This document shows positions 428 through 29,638 of a stretch of 64,000 bases of DNA, one piece after another (the first letter of the stretch is position 1; each line of letters starts with the position of its first letter). A program made the position numbers and the translations under genes. The DNA lies in NCBI RefSeq assembly GCF_006874645.1, contig NZ_CP030082.1:1178001-1242000 (forward strand), written 5' to 3'. This DNA comes from Bdellovibrio sp. ZAP7 (GTDB taxonomy: Bacteria > Bdellovibrionota > Bdellovibrionia > Bdellovibrionales > Bdellovibrionaceae). Under the pieces are notes generated by a model, which saw only the letters and a list, made by a program, of their open reading frames with translations, did not search any database and had not been told where the DNA came from.

Positions 428-985
428 ATGGAAAGAATATTGAATGCCGTATTGTTTTCGCTTGTCTCAATGGCCACGGCCGCTGCGATTGGCGCCCAGG
501 AGCAACCGCCCCAAAGAGGTCCCGCCGGTGCCGGCGGGGAGGGGAATGAAGTTCTGCGCTGTATTTATACTCCCGCAGCTGATTCCCAAAGTTCCTCACT
601 GCCAACATCCAAAATCGGCGTTAAGTTTTTGCTGCAAAGAAATAACAGCAATCACATTGCTGCTGACACTTACACTTTGAATGATTCCAATCAACCGATC
701 AAACAAGTTGGTCATGCGGAACTTGCGGGCTCTGTCTCAGAAGTCTCAGCCACAACGAAGGCCGCTGATATAATTTCGGGGTTAGCGTTGGCAGAGGATT
801 CGCCGTTTGATTTCCAAATCACTTTAGATTCAACCGCTGCCGACAGCAATGGTCGTTTAAGCGCCGTTGTGGAATCCATGACAACTTTTACGGGACAAAC
901 TTACACGCAAGTTCCTGTAAGTTGCAAAATCCCACCAGCTCCGCAGCAAAAACCACCGCAATCACAAAACGCACGTTTAAATTAA
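428..985 (+). CDS. Exported protein of unknown function
   Basis: About 185 residues. The N-terminus has a short basic start and a hydrophobic stretch ending around AAAIGAQ, a typical signal peptide, followed by a Pro/Gly-rich linker and a mature domain with two cysteines (LRCIY near the start, VSCKI near the end) that could pair. An ATG at 413 is also in frame, but the GAGGA motif at 415-419 sits nine bases before the ATG at 428, so the later start is preferred. The C-terminal tail is rich in Pro and Gln. No family recognised. The stop codon overlaps the stop of the convergent sirtuin gene by four bases (TTAA). Confidence 0.75.
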   Translation: MERILNAVLFSLVSMATAAAIGAQEQPPQRGPAGAGGEGNEVLRCIYTPAADSQSSSLPTSKIGVKFLLQRNNSNHIAADTYTLNDSNQPIKQVGHAELAGSVSEVSATTKAADIISGLALAEDSPFDFQITLDSTAADSNGRLSAVVESMTTFTGQTYTQVPVSCKIPPAPQQKPPQSQNARLN

Positions 986-1692
986 TCGCCCAGGATCTGC
1001 TTCACAAGTTTCGGAACTTCCTCTGAAGCAGGTCCCACCAGATGTTCCTCAAAGGCGCGGGAAATTTCCGTGTCTTTCACATTGATTTCAATCTTGCGCG
1101 CTTTCCACGCAAGTTGTACGAAGCCGGCGGCAGGGTAGACATTGCCGCTGGTGCCGATGGAAATAAAAATGTCGGCGTTTTCCAAGGCGTAGTAAATCTC
1201 GTCCATGTGGTGGGGCATTTCCCCAAACCACACGATGTCGGGGCGAAGGGCGCCCTTGATGCCGCATTGAGGGCAACTCTCATTTACTTCTAAGTCTTCT
1301 TCCCACAGCATCACTTCTTCGCAAGACAGGCAGCGGATTTGATCCAAGCGACCATGCATGTGCAGAAGGTTTTGGGAGCCCGCTTTTCGATGCAGATTGT
1401 CGACATTCTGGGTGACCAGCAGGAATTCGCCCTCCCAGGCCTTTTCCAACTCTGCCAGAGCGAAATGAGCGGCATTGGGCACCACTTTTGGGTCTTTCAG
1501 TTGAGATCGTCTCGCATTGTAAAAGCGTTGAACCAAAGCCGGGTCCCGATGAAAAGCCTCGGGAGTGGCAACGTCCTCGATACGATGTTCTTCCCAAAGG
1601 CCGTCTTGATCGCGAAACGTGCGAATGCCTGACTCGGCGGAAATGCCGGCCCCAGTAAGAATCACGATGTTTTTGAAGAGATGTGAGTTCAA
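982..1692 (-). CDS. cobB: NAD-dependent protein deacylase, sirtuin (CobB type)
   Basis: Sir2-family enzyme that removes acyl groups from lysine using NAD+, giving nicotinamide and O-acyl-ADP-ribose. Visible motifs are the NAD-binding GAGISAESGIRTFRD, the catalytic TQNVDNLH followed by the general-base His in HMHGRL, and a zinc knuckle with CLSC and CPQCG pairs. The length (about 236 residues) fits bacterial class III sirtuins. An upstream TTG at 1719 is in frame, but the TTG at 1692 is preceded by GAGG at seven bases and gives a normal sirtuin N-terminus. A single-gene unit convergent with the exported protein before it and divergent from aconitase. Confidence 0.93.
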   Translation of the reverse strand: MNSHLFKNIVILTGAGISAESGIRTFRDQDGLWEEHRIEDVATPEAFHRDPALVQRFYNARRSQLKDPKVVPNAAHFALAELEKAWEGEFLLVTQNVDNLHRKAGSQNLLHMHGRLDQIRCLSCEEVMLWEEDLEVNESCPQCGIKGALRPDIVWFGEMPHHMDEIYYALENADIFISIGTSGNVYPAAGFVQLAWKARKIEINVKDTEISRAFEEHLVGPASEEVPKLVKQILGD

Positions 1693-1781
1693 AATTATGC
1701 CTCGTGACAAGATGCCCAACTCGTTGAGCTTTCAACTGATTTTCATTAGGATGTGGCGTTCTTTACAGAAAGGCAATTACA

Positions 1782-4043
1782 ATGGCTTCTAAAATCGAAA
1801 CTACACCGGAAATGGTGCAGAACGTTTACAAGAAGACAGCTGAACGTATCGCAGTTGTTGGTAAGCGTTTGAACCGTCCTTTGACTCTTGGAGAAAAAAT
1901 CCTTTTCGGTCACTTGGACGACCCACAAAATCAAGAATTAGTTCGTGGCGAAAGCTTCCTACTTTTGAGACCAGACCGTGTAGCAATGCAAGATGCGACA
2001 GCGCAAATGGCTTTGTTGCAATTCATGCTTGCTGGAAAAGACGAAGCAGCGGTTCCTTCTACAGTTCACTGTGACCACTTGATCCAAGCTTACAAAGGTT
2101 CAAGCGTGGACATGACTGTTGCTAACACTTCCAACAAAGAAGTTTATGACTTCTTGGCGACAGCTTCTTCTCGTTACAACATCGGTTTCTGGAAACCAGG
2201 CGCTGGGATCATCCATCAAGTCATCCTAGAAAACTACGCTTTCCCAGGTGGCTTGATGATCGGTACAGACTCTCACACTCCAAATGCGGGTGGCTTGGGT
2301 ATGTGTGCGGTAGGTGTCGGTGGATCTGACGCTTCTGACGTCATGGTTGGTCTTCCATGGGAAGTTAAAAATCCAAAATTGATCGGTGTTCACCTTAAAG
2401 GAAAACTTGGCGGCTGGGCTTCTGCCAAAGACGTGATCTTGAAACTTTGCGGAATGCTAACTGTTAAAGGTGGTACGGATAAAGTTGTTGAGTACTTCGG
2501 TGAAGGGACTTCTTCAATCTCTTGTACGGGTAAAGCTACCATCACAAACATGGGTGCTGAGCTTGGTGCAACTTGTTCTGTATTCCCGTACGACGACCGC
2601 ATGGCTGCTTACTTGAAATCAACTGGCCGTGATGAATTAGCTAAAGTTGCTGATGCTCACAAAGATCTTTTGTCTGCTGATGCTGACGTTGTTGCAAATC
2701 CAGGCAAATACTTCGACGAAGTTTACGAAATCGATTTGTCTGCTTTGGAGCCACACTTGGTGGGTCCTCATACTCCGGACTTGGCTCGTCCTATCTCTGC
2801 ACTTAAAAAAGAAGTGGCTGAGAAAGGTTACACAGTTAAGATTTCTTCTGCGTTGATCGGTTCTTGCACGAACTCTTCATACGAAGATATTGGTCGCGCG
2901 GCATTCGTAGCGAAACAAGCTATGGAAGTCGGCGTGAAAATGGAATCTCCATTCTTGGTTTCTCCAGGTTCTACACAAATCCAAAACACTATCGAGCGCG
3001 ACGGTCAAATGGCGACGTTCAACGAAGTGGGTGCAACTGTTCTTGCGAACGCTTGCGGTCCTTGCATCGGTCAATGGAGACGTGACGACATTAAACCTGG
3101 CGAGAAGAATACAATCGTAACTTCTTTCAACCGTAACTTCCGCGCACGTAACGATGCGAATCCAGAAACTTTAGCTTTCATCGCAAGTCCTGAAATCGTA
3201 ATGGCGTTGGGTCTTGCCGGTCGTTTGGATTTCAATCCACAAACGGATGAATTGGTTGGACCAAAAGGTTCTATCAAATTGCAAGCTCCAGTGGCGCCAG
3301 AGTTGCCTGCTAAAGGTTTCATCGCGGACACTGAAGGTTACCAAAAACCAGCGGGTGCGACGGCTCAAGTGGCTGTGAATCCTTCTTCAGATCGTTTGCA
3401 ACTTCTTTCGCCATTCACGAAATGGGATGGTAACGACTTCGTTGATAATTTGGTTCTTGCGAAAGCAAAAGGCAAATGTACAACGGATCATATCTCTCCA
3501 GGTGGTAAATGGTTGAACTACCGTGGTCACTTGGACAACATCTCTAACAACATGTTGTTGGGTGCGGATAACGCGTTCACAGGTGAAATCGGTAAAGGTA
3601 AAAACCAACTGACTGGCGAAACTGGCGTTGAGTTCGCTCAGATCGCACGTCAATACCAAAAAGCTAGCAAAGGCTGGATCATCGTTGGTGACGAAAACTA
3701 CGGTGAAGGTTCTTCTCGTGAGCACGCAGCTATGTGCCCAAGACACCTTGGCGCGACTGCAGTGATCACGAAATCATTCGCACGTATTCACGAAACAAAC
3801 TTGAAAAAACAAGGTGTGTTGGCTTTGACTTTCGTAAATCCAAAAGACTACGACAAAGTTCAAGAAGCGGACAAAGTTTCCTTGGTAGATCTTAAAGATC
3901 TAGCTCCAGGTAAGAACGTGAAAATGATCTTGAAGCACGCTGATGGATCAACTGAAACGATCGAAGCGAAACATACATACAACGCAGAACAATTGAAATG
4001 GTTCAGAGCGGGCTCTGCTCTTAACTTGATCCGCGGCCTTTAA
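1782..4043 (+). CDS. acn: Aconitate hydratase, mitochondrial type
   Basis: TCA-cycle enzyme that interconverts citrate and isocitrate through cis-aconitate in the cytoplasm, using a [4Fe-4S] cluster. The three cluster cysteines are visible as C362 in GSCTNSS and C425/C428 in [10 protein letters not shown]; the 63 and 3 residue spacing matches mitochondrial aconitase. The active-site region [13 protein letters not shown] and the swivel-domain motif [18 protein letters not shown] are present. The length of 753 residues also matches the mitochondrial type rather than AcnA (about 890) or AcnB (about 865). AAAGG lies eight bases before the ATG. Codon choice is strongly biased, as in highly expressed genes. 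Transcribed alone, with two hairpins downstream. Confidence 0.97.
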
Positions 4044-25969: not shown

Positions 25970-27292
25970 ATGAAGTTGGCCTTTCTTTTAGCAACGATTA
26001 TATCGCTTTGGACCGCTACATCTGCCTTTGCCCAAGTCAGATGTGAATCCATTTTTGTCACTGCGGAAACGCTAGGTGACTATGGCGTCAATGCGGAGTC
26101 GATGGCCCCTTACTATATCGCCATGTTTCGTACGACCCAAATCGTCAGTGGTCTTAACTCTCGTTCTGGTGTTATCACCCAAGATATTCTTAATTCAGCT
26201 TCTTCGGAATATGGCACGATCATCACGAAATTCAGACCGCGTGGAAACCTGATGAGCCAGGACGGTCAATTTCGCGATCTGGTGAACGAGAATATCGAAT
26301 TTGTTTTGCAAACTTATTCTGAACGCCGTGACTGGTCGCCGGATTTACGTATTCATCTGAAAAAAGAAGCCGAGCACTACGCTGAACAAAGCACCTACAT
26401 CGAAGTTAGAAAGCTCAATCAAGATACTTACCTTCCTGAGGGATTGATCGGCACGATGAAGATCGTCAAAGTCGGGGTGGAAACTCGACTGAAGAAGCTT
26501 CCGCTGGAAGCAGACTTCTTGGTTACTATGCCCAGCAATAATGGGAAAAAATTCGAGCCCGCAAATTTCGTGGTGGATAAAGACCAAAACAAACTTGGAA
26601 CTTCCGAAATTTTTGCGCAATTGATTTTACATGCTCGTGAACAACTGAAGGATCCGGGTCATGAGCCGGGTAAAATGATGTACTATACTCCTGCCGATCG
26701 CCTGGGTGTGAAGATGTACGGGAAGCTGGGATTTTCTGCTGTCCCTGGTTTTGAAGCTCCTATTAAAGAAGGAGACAAAGACTGGTGGATGATTGGTAGC
26801 TCCGCTGAAAATTTGGCGACCTTGCCACAACGGTTGGCGCAAAATAAAGCTCAATGGAGCCCAGAAGACGTTGAATGGATGTCAGAGCTGGTAAAAAAAT
26901 TTGAAGGCTTGCGCGGAACCAGAACTGAAATTGAGAGCCGTCGCACCCGAGATGTCATCAATGCCGAAGGTGCTCGTGAAGTTCAAGAGATGGGTGTCTT
27001 CATCACAGAGCCTTTTACTTATAATGATAAAAACTATCGTCGCTTGGACGTTCATTCCATCGGTGGCGGCGATGTGGATATTCAAGTAAGGATTCCCGAC
27101 GAACAATTCCCTTTGCAAAATGGCTGGCGCTTTAAAGAACAAGGCATTTATATGTTCTATCAAGACGGGATCTTTAAAGTCCAAGATCCGTTAATGAAGA
27201 TATCTTTAACTATGAAGGTCGACGGGGCTTTTAAAAAGCCCGAATACTTAAAGGTTAAAGAACGGCATTATGATCTAAGAGCTCGATTTTAA
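25970..27292 (+). CDS. Exported protein with a GNAT-like segment
   Basis: 440 residues, signal peptide ending in SAFAQVRCE. Residues 100-260 contain a pattern recalling N-acyltransferases: YIEVRKLNQDTYLPEGLIGTMKIV, a strand-helix section, and AGKMM-like YTPADRLGVKMYGKLGFSAVPGF, where the helix-strand MYGKLGF matches the end of GNAT domains. An exported acyltransferase would be unusual because acyl-CoA is absent outside the cytoplasm, so this may be only fold similarity. The C-terminal region is charged and then beta-rich. It follows the TetR gene and overlaps the convergent Fnr-like gene by four bases. Confidence 0.6.
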   Translation: MKLAFLLATIISLWTATSAFAQVRCESIFVTAETLGDYGVNAESMAPYYIAMFRTTQIVSGLNSRSGVITQDILNSASSEYGTIITKFRPRGNLMSQDGQFRDLVNENIEFVLQTYSERRDWSPDLRIHLKKEAEHYAEQSTYIEVRKLNQDTYLPEGLIGTMKIVKVGVETRLKKLPLEADFLVTMPSNNGKKFEPANFVVDKDQNKLGTSEIFAQLILHAREQLKDPGHEPGKMMYYTPADRLGVKMYGKLGFSAVPGFEAPIKEGDKDWWMIGSSAENLATLPQRLAQNKAQWSPEDVEWMSELVKKFEGLRGTRTEIESRRTRDVINAEGAREVQEMGVFITEPFTYNDKNYRRLDVHSIGGGDVDIQVRIPDEQFPLQNGWRFKEQGIYMFYQDGIFKVQDPLMKISLTMKVDGAFKKPEYLKVKERHYDLRARF

Positions 27293-27930
27293 GTCGGCGT
27301 TATTTGAATACCTTGCGAGCTTTTACGCACGCGATTCTTTTTTTCTAAAGAAGTCAGCGTGCGGATCACCGTTTCCACAGTCAAATTCGTCCATAGAGAA
27401 ATTTCTTTTCGAGTCAGGCGACAGAAGCCGTCCTCGTCCTTGAAATGTTCTAAAGTTCTTAGAACCTTTTCCACGGCACTTTTCGATTGCAGTATTACGA
27501 CGCGCTCATAAGTATCCATTCCACGCTGACAAGCGCTTTGCAATAATAGCAACGCCAGATTGGAATCTACTGAAATCAGTTCGCGCACAGTTTTAAGCGG
27601 GAAGCTGCACAGGCGAGACTTTCCCTCGGCTACATATTCCAGCCTTGTCGGTTCATCTGAGACGGTGCTGGTCAGGGGAAAAAGGTGATTGGCTGTGAAG
27701 CTGGAAACTAAGTGCTCCCGACCTTCGAGATCTCTTTCGATGGTGTTAATTTTTCCTTCGGCGACGCAAAACATACTCATCGGTAAGCAGCCCTGACTGA
27801 TCACGCAGCTTGCAGAATTAACCTGATGAATGGATTTGGCTTTAAGCAGCGCAGTTGCCGTTGTGTCTTTAAGCTTCAGCTTACGATTTAAAAGAAAACA
27901 GTTTTGGCATTGCTTCGAAGAGTGCTTCAT
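27289..27930 (-). CDS. Crp/Fnr-family transcriptional regulator
   Basis: 213 residues. Residues 20-130 fold as a cyclic-nucleotide-type beta roll (SMFCVAEGKINTIERDLEGREHLVSSF), followed by the dimer helix and a winged helix-turn-helix. The recognition helix LTVETVIRTL closely matches FNR (E and R of the ETxxR motif kept, the Ser replaced), suggesting TTGAT-type half sites. Cysteines C8, C11, C42, C48 and C55 are present but do not match the FNR cluster spacing, so the ligand is unclear. The ATG at 27930 has AGGGG nine bases upstream; the GTG at 27936 does not. It faces the c-heme chemoreceptor gene across a short control region. Confidence 0.88.
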   Translation of the reverse strand: MKHSSKQCQNCFLLNRKLKLKDTTATALLKAKSIHQVNSASCVISQGCLPMSMFCVAEGKINTIERDLEGREHLVSSFTANHLFPLTSTVSDEPTRLEYVAEGKSRLCSFPLKTVRELISVDSNLALLLLQSACQRGMDTYERVVILQSKSAVEKVLRTLEHFKDEDGFCRLTRKEISLWTNLTVETVIRTLTSLEKKNRVRKSSQGIQITPT

Positions 27931-27967
27931 AAACACGAGCCCCTATCATAAGGAATTTCCACGCCGT

Positions 27968-28003
27968 ATGATTTGCATCATATCCGTCAAAGATACAAAT
28001 CAT
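27968..28003. promoter_or_regulatory. FNR-type palindrome inside a larger inverted repeat
   Basis: ATGATTTGCATCAT (27968-27981) has the TGAT-N4-ATCA core of an FNR site. It forms the left arm of a 36-base inverted repeat whose right arm is GATACAAATCAT (27992-28003), with one mismatch in 12. It lies 38 bases before the Fnr-like gene start and 76 bases before the chemoreceptor start, so it could control both. Confidence 0.55.
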
Positions 28004-28078
28004 TCTTAGCCCCCCGGTGCTTCCCATCATAATTATTTCAATGAAGCATCTTTTGTTTGGTTCAGTGGAGGTAAGAGA

Positions 28079-29638
28079 GTGAAGTGGTTTAGTGGGCGCG
28101 GATTGAAATTCAAATTCATTTGCTCGGTGATTGTGTCTTGTATGATTTGCGCGATGTGCGCTCTGGCCACAGGATTGTATTTCAATGGTGTTCAGTTTCG
28201 TTCCAGTCTCGTGGATAAAGCGCGAACTATCCACTCCCGGTTGAATGCGGCTTCCAGGTACGTTGCCAACCAGGGCGGATTACAGCCGATGATTGAGCGC
28301 TATACCAAACTCTATACAGATTCTTCGCAATTGACTGAAGAGGATCGTAAGATCATTTTGCAGCAAGTTCCGATTTATGCGGGAATGGCCATCGGTGCTT
28401 CCGAATCTGAAAAAGAACATTATCGCTTCCGTGTGTTCTCTGATGAGCCGCGCGATAAGAAAAATACTGCAACCCCGGTGGAGATGGAAATCTTTAAAAA
28501 ATTCGAGCAGGATAAAAACCTCCAAGAATTTATTATCAACACCGAAAATGAAGTCAGCGTGTATCGTCCAGTGCGTTTGAAAGAGTCTTTTGGCTGTCTG
28601 ACTTGTCACGGTCACCCCTCCACCAGTCCCTGGAAAAATGGCAAAGATATTTTGGGCTATCCGATGGAAGACTGGAAGGACGGCAAGCTTCACGGTGTGT
28701 TTGCTGTTCATAGTAACGTGAAGGAAGCCAAAGCGGCGGAAATCAGTAAAGGTGATAGTTCCCCAACGACGTTTATGGCGATATTCGTGTTCTCGGGAAG
28801 TTTGGTGTCTTTAGTGATCGCGGCGTTCTTTGTAAAGGGAGCGCTGGGGCAGTTGCAGGATGTTTCAAAAGTTTTAAAAGAATCAGGTGAACATGTAGAG
28901 AAAGCTGCGCAACAGATAGCTGAATCTTCGAGCTCCCTTTCCAAGGCCTCCACGGTGCAAGCTTCCTCATTAGAGGAAACAGTGGCGACTATGGAAGAGA
29001 TGTCTTCGATGGTAAAGCATAACTCTGAAAGTGCGAAAGAAGCTGCGGCGTTGGCATTGTCGGCAACGAAAGTGGCAAGCCTTGGGGGCAAGCAGATTCA
29101 AGAACTTGTGCATTCTATGACCCAGATTTCAGCAGACTCTAAAAAAGTCGTCGAGATCACCGCAGTGATTGATGACATCGCTTTTCAAACAAATCTCTTG
29201 GCCTTGAACGCGGCGGTAGAAGCCGCGCGCGCGGGTGAGCAGGGGAAAGGCTTTGCCGTGGTGGCTGATGCTGTTCGCGGCCTTGCTCAGCGCAGCGGCG
29301 AGGCGGCTAAAGGCATCGCTGCTTTGATCAATGAAAGTGCCGCGCGCATTGAAACCGGTGAAGCCCAAGCCCAAAAAGGTGGCGCTGTGTTTGAGGAAAT
29401 TTTAGAGGCTGTCAATCGTATGGCGGAGCTGAATGGAAATATCTCTGAATCAAGTGAAGAGCAAAGTCGAGGCATTGCCCAAATCGGGCAGGCGATGAAT
29501 CAATTGGATCAAACCACTCAACAAAACGCCGCAGTCTCTGAAGAAGCAGCTGCTTCGGCAGAGGAACTCTCCTCGCAGTCCACCAAGCTGAAATCGTCGG
29601 TAGATATCTTAGAAGGCGTGGTTTTCGGGGTAAAATAG
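28079..29638 (+). CDS. Methyl-accepting chemotaxis protein with periplasmic c-type heme domain
   Basis: 519 residues. An N-terminal membrane helix (12-35) is followed by a periplasmic DUF3365/Tll0287-like domain with the heme motif CLTCH (C173, C176, H177), a second membrane helix at about 235-255, and a cytoplasmic signalling domain with the invariant tip [20 protein letters not shown] and [18 protein letters not shown]. It should sense redox state, oxygen or NO through the heme and pass the signal to CheA/CheW. GTG start with GGAGG upstream. Divergent from the Fnr-like regulator; ends in a terminator. Confidence 0.93.

Follow-up and report, generated by a model that had tools for sequence, protein, structure and literature searches.

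The textbook FNR box is TTGATN4ATCAA. In Escherichia coli FNR, the main contacts to the box are made by Glu209, Ser212 and Arg213 (PMC4505428), and a Pseudomonas FNR carrying Cys at the Ser212 position was suggested still to bind the FNR box (PMC4505428), so Ser is not the sole residue permitting TTGAT. We analysed a window of 64,000 nucleotides (bases 1178001-1242000 of the genome) from Bdellovibrio sp. ZAP7, in which a Crp/Fnr-family regulator and a c-heme chemoreceptor are encoded head to head. Like E. coli FNR and Pseudomonas ANR, this locus combines a 14-bp TGAY-N4-RTCA core, the Crp/Fnr fold and an E-x-x-x-R recognition helix with a box found in the vicinity of respiratory genes. Unlike them, it has A/T instead of T/A as the outer bases of the box, Ile at the Ser212 position and three rather than four cluster cysteines. 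With the DNR/NNR-type NO regulators of denitrification it shares a box class that relatives have beside nirK and nnrS, as well as a partner receptor that is probably an NO sensor. It differs from them in that the link to NO is a predicted one and that the window regulator groups loosely with ccoI-linked Fnr proteins, away from the nirK-cluster Crp/Fnr proteins, on a weakly supported branch.

The receptor resembles the sCache_heme (DUF3365/Tll0287) proteins, including Geobacter GSU0935 and GSU0582 (PMC12889525), in its periplasmic Cache-type fold, CXXCH heme c and chemoreceptor fusion, and it resembles their NO-binding type in that its sensor has no conserved axial cysteine. In a 2026 preprint (PMC12889525), a signalling-associated Tll0287/DUF3365 protein bound NO stably, with slow release, and formed no stable O2 complex, and the stand-alone type was reported to have an axial cysteine and redox-like behaviour. 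Unlike the proteins described there, the window receptor is divergent from a Crp/Fnr regulator with which it putatively shares an operator; the preprint mentions neither Crp nor Bdellovibrio. Our literature search found no paper with ATGATNNNNATCAT and none linking a Bdellovibrio Crp/Fnr protein to a chemoreceptor.

The regulator and the chemoreceptor

A reading made earlier from the letters alone (the sequence-only reading) had proposed that an Fnr-like regulator and a chemoreceptor with a CLTCH heme domain share an FNR-type palindrome and form a redox or oxygen module. The gap of 148 nt that it placed between the two genes (ATG 27930 to GTG 28079) and its assignment of the receptor were both borne out (Table 1). 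The regulator belongs to the Crp/Fnr superfamily, its matches to PF00027 (cNMP-type sensor domain) and PF13545 (HTH_Crp) exceeding the cut-offs. An upstream GTG (27936) is a possible alternative start; a well-spaced AGGGG is present for ATG 27930 only. The recognition helix, described earlier as close to that of FNR, is FNR-like except that Ile replaces Ser212. Against the NCBIfam Fnr, FnrL and FixK models the protein scored far under the curated cut-offs (for Fnr, 17.9 versus 228 bits), it forms a very long branch in the Crp/Fnr tree, and within the genus a near-identical orthologue (97%) is found in G022 alone.

Table 1. Features of the divergent locus (window coordinates)
Feature	Position	Strand	Support
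Crp/Fnr-family regulator, 213 aa from ATG 27930	27289..27930	-	PF00027 E 3e-8, PF13545 E 2.6e-6
Recognition helix LTVETVIRTL, E-x-x-I-R, Ile at FNR Ser212 position	27355..27384	-	sequence, alignment
AGGGG, Shine-Dalgarno-like, 9 nt before ATG 27930	27940..27944	-	sequence; inference
Extra ATCAT half-site; minus strand TATGAT, -10-like (putative role)	27945..27949	.	sequence
Proposed Crp/Fnr operator, ATGAY-N4-RTCAT class	27968..27981	.	sequence, shuffles, cross-species recurrence; same in G022
Imperfect inverted repeat, 36 bases, right arm ending in CAAATCAT	27968..28003	.	repeat search and shuffles
ATCATAAT, extra half-site overlapping -10-like CATAAT of receptor	28026..28033	+	sequence
GGAGG ribosome-binding site of receptor	28067..28071	+	sequence
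Methyl-accepting chemotaxis protein, periplasmic c-heme sensor, 519 aa	28079..29638	+	PF11845 E 1e-22, PF00015 E 8e-46
Tll0287-like (sCache_heme) sensor domain, receptor residues 41-210	28199..28708	+	PF11845 profile, fold match
CLTCH heme-c attachment motif (C173, C176, H177)	28595..28609	+	alignments

Our alignment shows C-x2-C-x8-C plus a C122-like cysteine in the order's canonical Fnr proteins. Of these cysteines, the window regulator has C8, C11 and C108 (numbered from the ATG) but is without the third cluster cysteine, and thus retains three of the four [4Fe-4S] ligands of O2-sensing FNR. Its extra cysteines, C42 and C48, might substitute for the missing one. The genome encodes at least two further ETVIR Crp/Fnr proteins, which are putative binders of ATGATTTGCATCAT. 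An Fnr-like ETVIR paralogue (L199, genome 2809000-2815000, at 2622-3233 of that locus) is devoid of cysteines and nests in the canonical ccoI-linked Fnr clade with no ccoI-like gene beside it; it may be a clusterless Fnr.

The receptor is a methyl-accepting chemotaxis protein by its MCP signalling domain, and its sensor is Tll0287-like by profile, fold and CXXCH, the predicted model of the domain (pLDDT 89) having Tll0287 (5b82) as its best PDB fold match (E 1.1e-6). In both alignments made (12 and 18 sequences), the two Cys and the His of CLTCH were invariant, and these were the only conserved cysteines of the sensor; an MCP fusion with no axial cysteine is the combination seen in NO-sensing (Cluster 2) sCache_heme proteins. 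Because of the fusion, the CXXCH-only cysteines and the data of PMC12889525, NO is more likely than O2 to be the ligand of the receptor. The redox part of the proposed module is consistent with a box class found by ccoI-like, nirK, nnrS and c-heme receptor genes; its oxygen part is disfavoured by the likelier ligand and by the regulator's missing third cluster cysteine.

The palindrome and its box class

The palindrome ATGATTTGCATCAT (ATGAT and ATCAT around TTGC; position checked) fits TGAT-N4-ATCA exactly, as had been claimed. It differs from the FNR box TTGATN4ATCAA at two positions, both outer bases, and fits the class ATGAY-N4-RTCAT. The earlier description of a shared FNR-type palindrome is therefore upheld as to family, the site being very likely a Crp/Fnr-type operator and the head-to-head arrangement recurring with a matching box in other lineages, but the box is an order-specific variant and not the standard one. 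We dropped the plain FNR-box reading because TTGATN4ATCAA with up to two mismatches occurred at chance level in the window (50 versus 52) and because 28 of its 29 exact genome sites (about 20 would be expected given the window's half-site counts) lie within genes. The lone intergenic copy belongs to a cluster with copper nitrite-reductase-like, SCO1-like, DUF2249-like, nnrS and two Crp/Fnr genes. In this cluster, which is of denitrification type (L165, genome 1306469-1316482), the nirK-like gene is fused to a c-heme domain, two hybrid boxes precede nnrS, and anaerobic ribonucleotide reductase-like genes are present.

ATGATTTGCATCAT forms the start of the 36-base inverted repeat noted in the sequence-only reading, whose arms (27968-27979 and 27992-28003) are 12 nt each with one mismatch and a 12-nt spacer. 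A sigma-70 consensus scan of the gap found no promoter for either gene, and the canonical -41.5 geometry is absent at both. Between the window genome (G000) and G022, 3.4% of the gap and 9.5% of the regulator gene are changed and the site is unchanged, which is consistent with constraint without deciding for it; since G022 holds the sole close orthologue, the window site has no footprint from more remote relatives. Neither the regulator neighbour nor the box accompanies the closest receptor orthologues (G003, G013 and G019). Within the start of the receptor gene, ATGATTTGCGCGAT (28142-28155) contains the nine bases that open the palindrome, probably a chance effect of coding.

A scan of the 4.12-Mb single-contig genome, as the sequence-only reading had suggested, returned ATGATTTGCATCAT as a single copy. 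The ATGAY class was strongly enriched beside the regulators: intergenic DNA by Crp/Fnr genes held 19 ATGAY-N4-RTCAT sites in 16 kb, versus none in 30 kb of own-genome control. In nine genomes a ccoI-like P-type ATPase gene adjoining a canonical Fnr gene has the box 49-63 nt ahead of it; two of the ccoI-like genes gave Pfam E1-E2 ATPase matches, and one relative has a fused cbb3 oxidase gene in this cluster. The box also precedes the unpaired receptors of a second c-heme group in six of ten genomes, with differing spacers, only eight of these ten loci being unbiased because loci were fetched after two had shown the site. Further copies stand before a nirK-like gene in G028, in the nnrS-receptor gap of G084 and before a UspA/LuxR-type gene in five species. 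In the own genome, other intergenic ATGAY copies face putative etfB and sdhC genes and putative lpd and PadR genes; the half-sites of the lpd/PadR box are kept in G022, with the spacer changed from CCAG to CCCG. Since ATGATTTGCATCAT is very probably a genuine binding site of this variant class, which the order uses near respiratory and NO genes, the control of movement is probably tied to NO or redox signals. Counts of ATGATN4ATCAT did not distinguish the window genome and G022 from genus members without the window regulator, and site number therefore cannot assign ATGATTTGCATCAT to this regulator.

Two of these genomic copies may be described further. ATGACAGGGGTCAT (genome 20380-20393, L284) occupies the divergent gap between putative genes for an electron-transfer flavoprotein subunit and a succinate dehydrogenase cytochrome b. 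ATGATCTCGATCAT precedes the gene of a cysteine-rich LuxR-type-HTH protein (L190, genome 2384922-2389935, at 1953-2536 of that locus), with UspA-like and TetR genes near, and ATGATN4ATCAT is found before the orthologue of that gene in G022, G018, G001, G005 and G010.

Head-to-head pairs and the helix-box association

Among about 75 surveyed receptor loci, all with the same c-heme receptor type, a head-to-head Crp/Fnr neighbour was found in five lineages (window/G022, G055, G052, G035 and G072), against a chance expectation of 0.08 (P about 2e-8, a rough estimate that assumes about eight Crp/Fnr genes per genome). The start codons of the G072 pair overlap, leaving no gap; all four existing gaps contain an exact WTGAY-N4-RTCAW (ATGATTTGCATCAT, TTGATTGTCGTCAA, TTGATTATTGTCAA and TTGATTTATATCAA), and in the first receptor-locus survey only one unpaired locus had an exact box. 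In each of the pairs with a gap, that is, four of the five, the box fits the adjacent regulator. The partner regulators of G055, G052, G035 and G072 form one clade (support 99/94) with the window regulator outside it, indicating that no fewer than two kinds of Crp/Fnr protein were recruited into such pairs; the finer branching order is unsure because several branches are long.

Box type followed the recognition helix. Regulators with E-x-x-[I/M]-R had adjacent intergenic boxes of the ATGAY kind only at 16 loci, of both kinds at two and of the TTGAY kind only at none, versus five TTGAY-only loci (including G052, where a spurious ORF covers the box) and one ATGAY-only locus for E-x-x-[S/A]-R regulators; that one exception also has an ETVIR regulator nearby. 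The association gave a Fisher P of 2e-4, or 0.03 with related loci collapsed, the latter being fairer because many loci are orthologous and being based on few groups. The window regulator, with its ETVIR helix, and ATGATTTGCATCAT match the E-x-x-[I/M]-R/ATGAY class. With as much doubt as conviction, we propose that predators of this order repeatedly paired Crp/Fnr proteins of two subfamilies head to head with an NO-sensing heme chemoreceptor, that in their Fnr-type regulators a simple code at the Ser212 position selects TTGAY (Ser or Ala) or ATGAY (Ile or Met), and that the ATGAY regulon is connected with NO or redox taxis through the window module.

Candidate explanations of the palindrome

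Judged from these comparisons, the two divergent genes very likely have the palindrome in common as an operator of the Crp/Fnr type, and we take the locus for a genuine module of regulator and chemoreceptor that carries a variant Fnr box and is probably linked to NO or redox. Joining the observed site, its recurrence across species, the helix-box association and the receptor domain, we infer an arrangement that we regard as the probable one on balance. A Crp/Fnr dimer, most likely of the adjacent ETVIR-helix regulator, would occupy the palindrome and serve both promoters; the half-site would be ATGAY rather than TTGAY because E-x-x-[I/M]-R regulators of the order appear to read the outer A, whereas FNR (E-x-x-S-R) reads T. 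The regulator would control its own gene and adjust the amount of receptor as NO or redox conditions shift, and the receptor would steer swimming according to the NO (or redox state) sensed at its periplasmic heme.

The less secure part of this proposal is control of the receptor, since the spacing speaks for the regulator promoter: measured to the regulator start the site is 38-51 nt away, closer to the usual distance, and measured to the receptor start it is 98-111 nt away, beyond the usual 50-80 nt. This spacing would suit a site that serves only autoregulation of the regulator gene beside an independent receptor promoter, as would the varying distance from the box to the called receptor start in other pairs (56 nt in G055, 40 nt in G035 and 151 nt in G052). 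We consider such an arrangement unlikely, given that an extra half-site overlaps the -10-like element of the receptor and that in several genomes the box class precedes c-heme receptors with no adjoining regulator, which suggests that such receptors are regulated through the box elsewhere. The operator could also be real but belong to a global ETVIR Crp/Fnr protein, either the cysteine-less Fnr paralogue near 2.812 Mb or the regulator of the nirK cluster at 1.310 Mb, in which case the adjacent regulator would be no more than a target or would have other sites. The two further ETVIR regulators speak for this, as does the presence of the box class before c-heme receptor, ccoI-like and UspA/LuxR genes in genus members without the window regulator; however, the helix of the adjacent regulator matches the box, other lineages show such matching too, and cross-binding and self-binding are compatible, so that we rate exclusive use by a global protein as rather improbable.

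That the palindrome arose by chance in an AT-rich gap seems to us very improbable. ATGATN4ATCAT does occur 12 times in the genome versus about seven expected, half of the copies inside genes, but among 1,000 dinucleotide shuffles of the gap any WTGAY-N4-RTCAW appeared in only five and ATGAT-N4-ATCAT in none; moreover, the five ATGAT/ATCAT half-sites of the gap were equalled in none of them, and the paired loci repeat the box. Inverted-repeat arms as long as those observed arose in ten of the 1,000 shuffles. The existence of this 36-nt repeat might point to a structure acting in the RNA, a hairpin or terminator, instead of a site bound by protein, an explanation that we rejected and find scarcely credible, since single-strand folding of the gap was not unusual (z -1.0) and neither a T-run nor a terminator-like site was found in it. 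If the preferred explanation, an operator of a Crp/Fnr dimer between two divergent promoters, is true, it would provide a binding-site rule for the respiratory regulons of Bdellovibrio-like predators, whose sites standard FNR-box searches would miss, and, for the FNR family, a specificity switch of one residue. It would also put a partner redox regulator in control of the recently described c-heme Cache receptors that bind NO and suggest how NO or redox state could be coupled to swimming direction.

The same genome contains a second head-to-head Crp/Fnr-chemoreceptor pair (L200, genome 3204000-3210000, at 905-3510 of that locus) with TTGACTAATATCAA between the genes, which in G022 reads TTGATTAATATCAA. 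Its chemoreceptor has no recognised sensor or heme domain, and its Crp/Fnr protein is of the other subfamily, the partner clade. In G046, a Crp/Fnr gene of this clade adjoins a CheX gene and a response-regulator gene (L246, 1498-3630), a neighbourhood that suggests a broader link of the partner clade to chemotaxis.
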